A stretch of DNA of 64,000 nt from Pseudomonas eucalypticola (GTDB taxonomy: Bacteria > Pseudomonadota > Gammaproteobacteria > Pseudomonadales > Pseudomonadaceae), in NCBI RefSeq assembly GCF_013374995.1, contig NZ_CP056030.1, forward strand, positions 4,434,501 through 4,498,500, read 5' to 3'. Position numbers and translations under genes: made by a program. Positions 12,582 through 33,851 of the stretch are shown here, in pieces. Numbering within the stretch: position 1 is the first letter of the stretch; every line of letters starts with the position of its first letter. The notes below the pieces were generated by a model that was not told the origin of the DNA, ran no database searches, and saw only the letters and a list, made by a program, of their open reading frames with translations.

Positions 12582-12658
12582 TGGTCGGGACGGAGTGATT
12601 CGAACACTCGACCCCTAGCACCCCATGCTAGTGCGCTACCGGACTGCGCTACGCCCCG
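12582..12658 (-). tRNA. tRNA-Pro(GGG), prophage attachment site
   Basis: A 77-nt cloverleaf on the minus strand with encoded CCA (12582-12584). The acceptor stem is CGGGGCG/CGTCCCG with one G-U pair. The anticodon stem is CTAGC/GCTAG with loop ATGGGGT, giving anticodon GGG. The T-arm is GAGTG/CACTC with TTCGAAT. The prophage lies on its 3' side, so the 3' part of the gene is the likely core shared by attL and attR. The exact core length cannot be determined because the other copy is not in the window. Confidence 0.95.
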
Positions 12659-17571: not shown

Positions 17572-18120
17572 TTACTTCTTTTTCTTGGGGGCGATGACCA
17601 TGATCAGCTGGCGTCCTTCCATCTTAGGATGCTGTTCGACGGAACCGTACTCCAGCAGGTCTTGTTCGACCCGCTTGAGCAGTTCCATACCCAGCTCCTG
17701 ATGCGCCATCTCACGGCCGCGAAATCTCAAGGAAATCTTGGCCCTGTCCCCATCACTAAGGAAACGTACCAGGTTGCGTAGTTTTACCTGGTAATCCCCT
17801 TCCTCCGTCCCTGGACGAAACTTGATTTCTTTTACCTGGATCTGCTTCTGGTTCTTCTTCGCCGCAGCAATCTGCTTCTTCTTCTCGAAGATCGATTTGC
17901 CGTAGTCCATGACTCGGCAAACCGGAGGCACTGCGTCGGCAGAAATTTCCACCAGATCCAGCTTCGCTTCTTCAGCGATACGAAGCGCTTCATCAATCGA
18001 GACGATGCCAACCTGCTCGCCGTCAGCGCCAATTAACCGAACCTCGCGCGCCGAGATATTCTCGTTGATCGGGGCTTTCGGTGCAGCTCGTTTATCTTGT
18101 CTCATTTCACGCTTAATAAT
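17572..18120 (-). CDS. infC: translation initiation factor IF-3, probable AUU start
   Basis: A 182-residue IF-3 with the N-domain ([20 protein letters not shown]), the basic linker ([21 protein letters not shown]) and the C-domain ending VIAPKKKK. It discriminates initiator tRNA and start codons and prevents subunit joining. I place the start at ATT 18120 ([10 protein letters not shown] in frame). GGAG at 18126-18129 is five bases from this ATT (eight from the next ATT, 18117) but 20 from the first ATG (18105), which has no site of its own. An AUU start is the basis of IF-3 autoregulation in E. coli. The ribosome site overlaps the thrS stop region. Confidence 0.93.
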
Positions 18121-18122
18121 TA

Positions 18123-20045
18123 TTACTCCGAATCTTGGCGACCACGCCGGGAAACCGCTTGTGCGAGGAACTCGGTGAACTGGGCGACGGGCATGGAGCC
18201 CAGGTCTGCACCTTCACGGGTACGCACAGCGACAGTTTGCGTCTCGACTTCCTTGTCCCCGATGACCAGGAGATAAGGAACCTTGAGCAAGGTATGCTCG
18301 CGGATTTTAAAGCCGATCTTTTCATTTCTCAAGTCGGACTTGGCACGAAACCCGCTTTCCGTCAGATTTTTTTCGACCTGATGAACAAAATCAGCTTGTT
18401 TATCAGTGATATTCATGATCACCGCCTGCGTGGGTGCCAACCAGGCCGGGAACGCACCTTCATAGTGCTCGATCAGGATACCCACGAAACGCTCGAACGA
18501 ACCCAGGATGGCGCGGTGCAGCATCACCGGATGCTTGCGGCTGTTGTCCTCGGACACGTACTCGGCGCCCAGGCGGATTGGCAGGTTGAAATCCAGCTGC
18601 AGCGTACCGCACTGCCAGACGCGACCCAGGCAATCCTTCAGGGAAAACTCGATTTTCGGACCGTAGAAAGCACCCTCGCCCGGCTGCAGATCATACGGCA
18701 GGCCAGCGGCCTCCAGCGCGGCGGCCAGAGCGGACTCGGCACGATCCCACAATTCGTCGCTGCCTACACGCTTTTCAGGACGAGTGGACAGTTTCAGCTG
18801 AATATCCTTGAAGCCGAAGTCCGAATACACGTCCATGGTCAGCTTGATGAACGCTGCCGATTCGGATTGCATCTGCTCTTCGGTGCAGAAGATATGGGCG
18901 TCGTCCTGGACGAAGCCACGCACACGCATGATGCCGTGCAGCGCGCCCGAAGGCTCGTTGCGGTGACAGGCGCCGAATTCGGCCAGGCGCATCGGCAGCT
19001 CGCGGTAGCTCTTCAGGCCCTGGTTGAACACCTGCACGTGGCAAGGGCAGTTCATCGGCTTGATGGCGTAGTCGCGGTTTTCCGACTCGGTGGTGAACAT
19101 GTTTTCGGCGTAGTTGGCCCAGTGGCCAGACTTTTCCCACAGGCTGCGGTCAACGACCTGGGGCGTCTTGATCTCCAGGTAGCCGTTGTCGCGCTGCACC
19201 TTGCGCATGTACTGCTCGAGTACCTGGTAGAGGGTCCAGCCGTTCGGGTGCCAGAACACCATGCCCGGTGCTTCTTCCTGGAGGTGGAACAGGTTCAGGC
19301 GCTTGCCGATCTTGCGGTGGTCGCGCTTTTCCGCTTCCTCGATGCGCTGGATGTACGCGGCCAGTTGCTTCTTGTCAGCCCAGGCGGTGCCGTACACGCG
19401 CTGCAGTTGCTCGTTCTTGGCATCGCCGCGCCAGTAGGCACCTGACAGCTTGGTCAGCTTGAACGATTTCAGGAAACGGGTGTTCGGCACGTGCGGGCCG
19501 CGGCACATGTCGACGTACTCTTCGTGGTAGTACAGGCCCATGCTCTGGGTCTCAGGCATGTCCTCCACCAGGCGCAGCTTGTAGTCCTCGCCACGGGCGC
19601 TGAACACCTCGATGACTTCGGCGCGCGGCGTGACCTTCTTGATCACGTCGTATTCGGTGTCGATCAGCTGCTGCATGCGCTGTTCGATGGCGGCCATGTC
19701 GTCCGGGGTGAAAGGACGCTCGTAGGCGATGTCGTAATAGAAGCCTTCGTCGATGACCGGGCCGATGACCATCTTCGCGGTGGGGTACAGCTGCTTGACC
19801 GCGTGGCCGACCAGGTGGGCGCAAGAGTGACGAATGATTTCAAGCCCCTCTTCATCCTTGGGCGTGATGATCTGCAGGGTGGCGTCGTTTTCGATCAGGT
19901 CGCACGCGTCGACCAGGTTGCCGTTGACCTTGCCGGCCACGGTGGCCTTGGCCAGGCCAGCGCCAATGGAGGCTGCAACCTGGGCGACCGATACCGCGTG
20001 GTCGAAGGAACGTTGACTGCCGTCGGGAAGAGTAATGATGGGCAT
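18123..20045 (-). CDS. thrS: threonyl-tRNA synthetase
   Basis: A 640-residue class II synthetase starting at ATG 20045 behind GGAGAGGAGG. Domains: TGS (1-62), second additional/editing domain (about 65-225, with [16 protein letters not shown] and the later CRGPHVP), catalytic core (about 240-530, [10 protein letters not shown], then [10 protein letters not shown]) and anticodon-binding domain (about 535-640). It charges tRNA-Thr and clears Ser-tRNA-Thr. The leader carries two stem-loops with threonine anticodons in their loops, consistent with the enzyme binding and repressing its own mRNA. The stop lies two bases before the infC start. Confidence 0.98.
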
Positions 20046-20064
20046 GGCGCCTCCTCTCCTAGTG

Positions 20065-20085
20065 GTGACCCCTACCAAAGGTCAC
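20065..20085 (-). promoter_or_regulatory. thrS leader stem-loop I, tRNA-Thr(GGU) anticodon-arm mimic
   Basis: On the minus strand GTGACC (20085-20080) pairs with GGTCAC (20070-20065), extended by one U-G pair, closing a 7-nt loop UUGGUAG. The anticodon positions of this loop read GGU with U33 in place, and the tRNA-Thr(GGU) loop of E. coli is UUGGUAA. The element lies just upstream of the ribosome binding site of thrS. This matches the known E. coli mechanism in which ThrRS binds an anticodon-like operator and blocks ribosome access. Confidence 0.72.
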
Positions 20086-20123
20086 GTGGGTTGGGATGAG
20101 CCAGTACAAGATTCGGCGGTATG

Positions 20124-20142
20124 CCTGCCTCACAGTGGCAGG
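20124..20142 (-). promoter_or_regulatory. thrS leader stem-loop II, loop carrying UGU
   Basis: On the minus strand CCTGCC (20142-20137) pairs perfectly with GGCAGG (20129-20124) around a 7-nt loop ACUGUGA. The anticodon positions read UGU, the anticodon of another tRNA-Thr; position 33 is C instead of U. It lies about 80-97 bases before the thrS start and would be the second operator domain. I see no gene in the rest of 20046-20375. Confidence 0.5.
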
Positions 20143-20375
20143 AGCCGCTAGGCCAACCGGGACCGAACCAGAGTGACTGGAATAATATTGAAGGTACCTC
20201 GCCACCGCGGCTGCCAAAAGAGCAACCGCACCTGTCGAGGGCGCTCACAATAGCACAGATAATGGCCGATGAGTGGTCGGCGGGGCACGCCTTGCAGGAA
20301 CTTGCTCGCTGACCTTCACTCTGATGAGAGGCAAGCCATACTTCGAGTCAGCCTGAACAAAAGGAGCATTACGGT

Positions 20376-33774: not shown

Positions 33775-33851
33775 TGGTAGGCACGATTGGACTCGAACCA
33801 ACGACCCCCACCATGTCAAGGTGGTGCTCTAACCAACTGAGCTACGTGCCT
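33775..33851 (-). tRNA. tRNA-Val(GAC)
   Basis: A 77-nt cloverleaf with encoded CCA on the minus strand. The acceptor stem is AGGCACG/CGTGCCT. The anticodon stem is CCACC/GGTGG with loop TTGACAT, giving anticodon GAC. The T-arm is TTGGT/TCCAA-type with TTCGAGT. No phage-like sequence is next to it. Confidence 0.95.

Follow-up and report, generated by a model that had tools for sequence, protein, structure and literature searches.

The window, by which we mean the whole 64,000-nt stretch of Pseudomonas eucalypticola DNA that was analysed, carries on its minus strand the gene thrS for threonyl-tRNA synthetase (ThrRS), preceded by a structured leader whose elements are collected in Table 1. The encoded protein has the N-terminal TGS and editing domains and the anticodon-binding domain found in E. 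coli-type ThrRS, and the structure entries 1qf6 and 1kog are among its matches. The frames 3' of thrS resemble infC, rpmI, rplT, and pheS (the names are our own reading of the frames), and the order thrS-infC-rpmI-rplT-pheS is the one annotated in E. coli K-12. In E. coli, IF3 starts at AUU. In the minus-strand interval 18103-18125, the thrS stop codon (18125-18123) is followed by in-frame ATT ATT codons ahead of the first infC ATG, as expected for an IF3 start at AUU. The genome from which the window comes has tRNA-Thr genes with GGU and with UGU anticodons, and a pattern match suggests a CGU-type tRNA-Thr. As to other tRNA genes, a tRNA-Pro(GGG) gene (12582-12658, minus strand) was found by ARAGORN and by an RF00005 search of the genome (59.3 bits) and is absent from the Rfam gathering scan of the window. 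At loci outside the family (e.g., L075, L083, and L112), a tRNA with a GAC (valine) anticodon loop was seen by eye immediately ahead of thrS, an arrangement shared by many class members; the tRNA-Val(GAC) gene of the window is located at 33775, about 13.6 kb from thrS.

Table 1. The thrS gene and the elements of its leader in the window.
Feature	Position	Strand	Details
thrS, threonyl-tRNA synthetase	18123..20045	-	640 aa, ATG at 20045; TGS, tRNA_SAD, class II core, and anticodon-binding domains
Shine-Dalgarno sequence GGAGG, 4 nt ahead of the ATG	20050..20054	-	sequence
CACT behind the proximal stem; belongs to the conserved CACCACT motif	20061..20064	-	
Proximal anticodon-arm mimic	20065..20085	-	GTGACCT 20085-20079, loop TTGGTAG 20078-20072, GGGTCAC 20071-20065; triplet GGU
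Near-invariant C-rich linker CTCATCCCAACCCAC between the arms	20086..20100	-	
Distal branched domain, corresponding to domain 4 of the E. coli operator	20101..20180	-	CCAGT 20180-20176 with ACTGG 20105-20101
Distal anticodon-arm mimic	20124..20142	-	CCTGCC 20142-20137, loop ACTGTGA 20136-20130, GGCAGG 20129-20124; triplet UGU
Short side hairpin GGCC-TAGC-GGCT, at the D-arm position of a tRNA	20143..20154	-	
Inner stem, 5' strand GGTTCGG	20163..20169	-	pairs with CCGAATC 20116-20110

A preliminary description of this DNA had placed two minus-strand stem-loops ahead of thrS, and direct reading of the sequence located both exactly there. Their 7-nt loops, UUGGUAG in the proximal arm and ACUGUGA in the distal arm, are as it had given them. 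With the loops numbered as tRNA positions 32-38, anticodon positions 34-36 read GGU (20076-20074) and UGU (20134-20132), respectively, again in agreement with that account. To estimate how often such hairpins arise by chance, we dinucleotide-shuffled the 135-nt leader 20,000 times. One or more hairpins of this kind (stem of at least 6 bp, 7-nt loop, loop positions 4-5 reading GU) appeared in 3.1% of the shuffled leaders, and two separate GU-bearing hairpins appeared in 0.02%. Folding of the single leader was uninformative. The stability of the 181-nt leader stretch is ordinary (z +0.61), and in the minimum-energy fold of the window leader the distal region is paired otherwise and the distal arm is absent, the branched three-way fold lying 0.6 kcal/mol above the minimum. 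Because of this ordinary stability and this energy difference, the case made here rests on comparison with relatives and not on folding energy.

The distal arm was found in all 69 leaders fetched from the genus and in most leaders of the family. The preliminary description was correct in identifying this arm and missed the frame around it: the arm belongs to a branched domain closed by CCAGU/ACUGG. We regard the branched fold as a comparative structure. The genus alignment comprises 55 of the 63 distinct genus leaders (A1; without L012, L015, L021, L024, L050, L054, L062, and L064). The inner stem shows double changes at 3 of the 6 counted pairs in this alignment (columns 12-17 with 92-97). 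Within the genus, the closing stem CCAGU/ACUGG is invariant except at its last pair, where 10 of the 55 leaders have a break, so the closing helix is without covariation support. Across the family, the closing pattern CCAG[A/T]...CTGGC is present in 110 of 115 leaders; the 5 leaders that lack it all belong to one genus, and in 4 of them, inspected by eye, a similar branched region is enclosed by another closing stem. The tetraloop of the side hairpin varies among relatives (e.g., GCAA, GAAA, and TTCG).

Two subgroups of the genus (15 aligned leaders in A3 and 14 in A4) have an additional 5-bp arm after the anticodon arm. The single-sequence minimum-energy folds of 26 of these 29 leaders are four-way cloverleaves whose central arm bears the 7-nt NGU loop, the exceptions being L065, L029, and L054, and the consensus folds of A3 and A4 are both four-way cloverleaves. 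Pair counts in the two alignments support the extra arm and the inner stems, with the outer closing stem again invariant; the values were not above shuffles for one measure out of five in A3 and for the count of doubly changed pairs in A4. The domain of the window itself is three-way, the third side arm being absent. The identity of the cloverleaf as a tRNA or another Rfam family was ruled out, as neither ARAGORN nor Rfam made a call in the domains tested (the window leader, L001, eight cloverleaf-type loci, and five loci), and its likeness to tRNA is therefore one of shape.

The stretch between the branched domain and the start codon allows a different account of part of the control, in which the ribosome site is sequestered. 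The sequence UGGCUCAUCC, composed of the 3' side of the closing stem and the linker, would pair with GGAGGCGCCA over the Shine-Dalgarno sequence and the start (pairing region 20046-20104, minus strand), in competition with CCAGU/ACUGG. RNAalifold predicts the UGGCUCAUCC/GGAGGCGCCA pairing from the 55 genus leaders, and hardly any variation is seen in either the linker or the ribosome site, a degree of conservation not required of a plain linker. However, nearly all of the pairs are invariant in the genus and therefore allow no covariation test there, and the variant family linkers CCACCCC (L208) and TTAATCCC (L223) occur with the same GGAGGCGCC. Moreover, in the arrangement as drawn, ThrRS on the distal domain would favor the open state, which is the opposite of repression. 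We consider it unlikely that sequestration of this kind contributes to the control, and prefer an operator in which the two anticodon-like arms are the elements recognized by ThrRS.

The preliminary description had read the thrS leader as a mimic of threonine anticodons and had proposed that relatives be checked for covariation in both stems and for loop triplets held to NGU. We ran both checks, and the proximal arm is considered here first. As judged from the gap-free alignment of GTGATCTTTCGTGTGGGTCACCACT from E. coli K-12 with GTGACCTTTGGTAGGGGTCACCACT from the window, the proximal arm and domain 2 of the E. coli thrS operator are homologous. It sits immediately upstream of the ribosome site in the window, and its loop TTGGTAG is one base apart from the loop TTGGTAA of tRNA-Thr(GGU) in the same genome. 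Proximal modules were screened for as a 6-bp stem (at least 5 pairs) with a 9-nt loop and a CACT[G/A] tail, one mismatch being allowed and the loop letters left free. Leaders were fetched from 69 of the 148 matching genomes of the genus, and every one of the 69 has a proximal module with GU, reading GGU in 68 and CGU in 1. The 117 leaders from outside the genus gave 70 GU modules (CGU 32, GGU 28, AGU 6, and UGU 4), and in 41 of these leaders the screen returned no proximal-module candidate. The remaining 13 candidates from outside the genus are scattered in place and sequence, and letter-shuffled leaders yield about 22 candidates per set.

For covariation, we aligned the 59 distinct modules that form 5 or more of the 6 pairs, have an exact CACT, and lie no more than 100 nt from the start (A2), the loop letters playing no part in the choice. 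G35-U36 is kept in all 59 modules. The stem shows double changes at 5 of its 6 pairs, and none of 500 shuffles was as high on any measure; the percentage of paired cells (98.6%) is a biased figure because the rows were chosen for at least 5 of 6 pairs. On the FastTree tree, position 34 of the proximal loop changes 4 times and positions 35 and 36 never change. Since an exact CACT was a selection rule, A2 is no evidence for the tail; when no tail rule was applied, CACT was found behind six-pair GU-loop stems near the start in 69 of 69 leaders of the genus and in 60 of 64 outside it. A leader from outside the family (L177, 132-161, minus strand) has GUU in its proximal arm and not NGU, an apparent decay or shift of a functional arm, and its two further upstream arms keep GGU. 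The tail is also touched by a change in the E. coli thrS leader at 1,802,589, which its authors propose to be a borrelidin-resistance mutation (PMC13148393). The change affects the second-last C of CACCA[C]T, and this C is kept in 69 of 69 genus stems and 63 of 64 stems from outside the genus gathered with no tail rule. The borrelidin-linked change lends independent, if unproven, support to the importance of the CACCACT tail. Torres-Larios et al. 2002 reportedly found the domain 2 motif in a subset of Gram-negative bacteria as well, and the proximal arm of the genus may therefore be in print already.

The spread of the proximal arm was assessed with a 30-position model, R1. The model matches the window arm with an E value of 2.8e-11, this arm being among the sequences used to build it, and in the window's own genome thrS is the sole significant match (next E value, 0.9). 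Class-wide, 137 of 369 genomes match at E ≤0.01, some of them weakly and away from thrS. Of 398 genomes sampled across the phylum, 77 match at E ≤0.001, and 74 of these belong to the same class, the three matches outside it having E values of 1.4e-5 to 3e-4. Eight weak matches away from thrS were fetched (L271-L276, L280, and L281). An NGU loop, which R1 rewards, was seen by eye in L271, L273, L274, and L281; the matches in L273, L274, and L281 overlap reading frames, and L271 (96-125, plus strand; E 9.1e-6) is an isolated domain 2-like arm with a CGU loop outside the longest frames. As further ThrRS-controlled sites these eight were rejected and taken as chance matches. No Rfam family matched the leader and R1 finds the proximal arm across the class, so the element could join genome annotation.

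Some genomes have two thrS copies. Five of the second copies (L070, L240, L109, L116, and L118) showed no significant domain 2, and the other copy has domain 2 in all four genomes for which both were fetched (L021, L208, L186, and L187). Outside the family, arms also occur in tandem, as established partly by eye, with two in L176, L277, and L279 and three in L183 and L278. The triplets of the three-arm arrays are all GGU in L183 and CGU, GGU, and CGU in L278. The minimum-energy folds of the arrays sometimes do not contain all arms at once, perhaps because near-identical arms compete with one another.

Variation in the distal arm was drawn from other genera of the family (19 genera, the window's own included), and the family set comprises 115 leaders. 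L191 and L237 were excluded from this set, their start not being at the expected place (L237 is cut by a contig end). The stem screen of the family returned 108 GU matches, 2 of which are 4-bp chance stems. Distal arms were chosen by stem and position only, and 8 of the 115 leaders were set aside before counting (L200, L203, L209, L213, L214, L224, L236, and L238). Inspection of these by eye revealed UGU arms with a mismatch in L236 and L213, CGU in 8-nt loops in L200 and L209, and no clear NGU arm in L203, L214, L224, and L238. The 107 counted leaders have GU at distal loop positions 35-36 without exception, and position 34 is U in 76, C in 24, A in 5, and G in 2. On the FastTree tree, which was built from flanking sequence with both loops excluded, the minimum numbers of changes at distal loop positions 32-38 are 11, 16, 18, 0, 0, 12, and 22. 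The stem was examined in 49 distinct arms (A5, 49 of 55 hairpins, chosen without use of the loop letters; the L054 alternative, L200, L203, L209, L213, and L214 were dropped). Double changes were found at 4 of the 6 pairs, with 97.3% of cells paired, a percentage biased by the choice of rows by pairing. Stem variants in the family leaders include CTGCC/GGCAG, CAACC/GGTTG, CTACC/GGTAG, CCGCC/GGCGG, and CGGCA/TGCCG.

Positions 35 and 36 are the G and U identity elements of tRNA-Thr that are read by ThrRS. A distal triplet with 35-36 fixed and 34 free is the pattern expected of ThrRS identity and not of an arbitrary loop. A review describes G and U as tRNA-Thr identity elements kept in the E. coli arms (PMC7373986). 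The results of both checks, namely, stems that covary across relatives and triplets held to NGU in the proximal as well as the distal arm, support the reading of the thrS leader as a mimic of the threonine anticodon.

The E. coli operator depends most on domain 2, which lends some weight to a reading in which the proximal arm is the only ThrRS site, the distal domain has another role, such as stabilizing the 5' end or binding some other RNA-binding protein, and the NGU triplet of its loop is incidental. Second canonical 7-nt arms are likewise few outside the genus, where 69 leaders have 7 GU hairpins upstream of domain 2 (one of them in a family member, L073) vs. 1.9 expected from shuffles. 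In addition, the distal loop of the window lacks U33, as well as A37, both of which are present in the two tRNA-Thr loops read in the window's genome; among 47 distinct distal loops, U33 is found in 15 and A37 in 19. An incidental triplet is, however, hard to reconcile with 0 changes at distal positions 35-36 in 107 leaders, compared to 11-22 at the other five loop positions, and with the presence of all four bases at position 34. A single proximal site is, in our judgment, quite unlikely, and we retain the reading in which both arms serve ThrRS. A tRNA-sensing T-box or a threonine-codon attenuator, which anticodon-like loops in the leader of a synthetase gene might suggest, is extremely improbable, given that no Rfam family reaches threshold in the leader (one chance match at E ≤5), that the triplets are anticodons (NGU) and not specifier codons (ACN), and that the two terminator-like sites lie upstream of the domain (20228-20281), with none between the arms and thrS.

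These results indicate with high probability that the leader is a translational operator by which ThrRS represses its own mRNA. The arms very likely imitate the threonine anticodon so that surplus ThrRS can bind and stop its own production. The steps of ThrRS binding, dimer bridging, repression, and relief by tRNA are proposed here by analogy with E. coli. The two anticodon-binding domains of a ThrRS dimer would dock on the two mRNA arms with threonine anticodons, the proximal arm (GGU) adjoining the ribosome site and the distal arm (UGU) being held in the branched domain upstream. The bound ThrRS would cover the ribosome site, and tRNA-Thr would compete for the same surface of ThrRS, so that repression would be relieved. 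In E. coli, ThrRS binds two anticodon-arm mimics and hinders the 30S subunit, and tRNA-Thr competes (PMC7373986, PMC9976931, PMC3858243).

The preliminary description had singled out the presence of two different threonine anticodons in separate loops. Both are present; two different mimics are not new in themselves, as two arm mimics are known in E. coli, and for the same reason the mechanism is not new. Two anticodon mimics in the E. coli operator were reportedly described by Romby et al., EMBO J 1996. They also appear in two reviews (PMC7373986, PMC9976931), and one review gives CGU in both E. coli loops; the K-12 sequence has CGU in domain 2, and for the domain 4 loop AUUUGUUG our own alignment gives UGU. 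The leader studied here and the E. coli thrS operator share the gene, the site just upstream of the ribosome site, the proximal arm with its CACCACU tail, and the two arms with threonine anticodon triplets in which G35/U36 are kept. In contrast, the second arm of E. coli is, in the K-12 fold, a long hairpin of irregular pairing with a loop of 8 nt, whereas here it is part of a branched or cloverleaf-shaped domain and has a 7-nt loop. Likewise, the linker is U-rich and the Shine-Dalgarno sequence weak in E. coli, whereas here the linker is C-rich and near-invariant (CTCATCCCAACCCAC) and the Shine-Dalgarno sequence is strong (GGAGG). In E. coli, the U-rich sequence between the arms and the weak Shine-Dalgarno sequence of thrS need protein S1 (PMC3858243). 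We treat these two properties as a species feature that does not define ThrRS control.

Similar principles are known from other systems. In the tRNA-Asp mimic of the yeast AspRS mRNA, a synthetase also binds an anticodon-like element in its own mRNA (PMC9976931, PMC7373986); the enzyme, the sequence, and the organism are different. Viral tRNA-like structures are also RNA folds that imitate tRNA for a synthetase (PMC9976931), but they are 3' ends with an accepting end, whereas the thrS cloverleaf is without an acceptor end. Among the matches listed in the open-access literature on thrS and threonyl-tRNA synthetase, covered as titles and abstract openings and with most subscription papers outside its scope, no description was found of the Pseudomonas thrS leader, of a branched domain 4, or of tandem arms. 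As far as found, what is new is the branched second site, with its four-way cloverleaf in two subgroups of the genus, and, elsewhere in the class, the arrays in which two or three arms stand in tandem.

On comparative sequence grounds, we assign the leader with high confidence to the ThrRS operators of the E. coli type; the assignment is well supported, and the second site is a variant one. We lean, with less assurance, toward a more specific view, in which the second ThrRS site of this family is a cloverleaf-shaped tRNA mimic. A tRNA-like body would be offered to the second ThrRS subunit by the closing stem, the D-like tetraloop arm, the anticodon arm (5-6 bp, 7-nt NGU loop), and the T-like arm that two subgroups have in addition; the anticodon arms would be modular units, present singly or as two or three in tandem with mixed threonine triplets across the class, and repression could be stronger or weaker according to their number.

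As a textbook example of RNA mimicry, the E. coli thrS operator has been studied in one species. The natural sequence variation described here amounts to evolution's own mutagenesis of the thrS operator, and the pattern common to both arms, with position 34 free and positions 35-36 fixed, is a natural read-out of the identity rules of ThrRS outside tRNA. This natural NGU constraint, the branched or cloverleaf-shaped second site, and the arm arrays are worth following. With the branched site and the arrays of one to three arms, the number of tRNA mimics required by a dimeric synthetase and the importance of the body around the anticodon arm become accessible to experiment.
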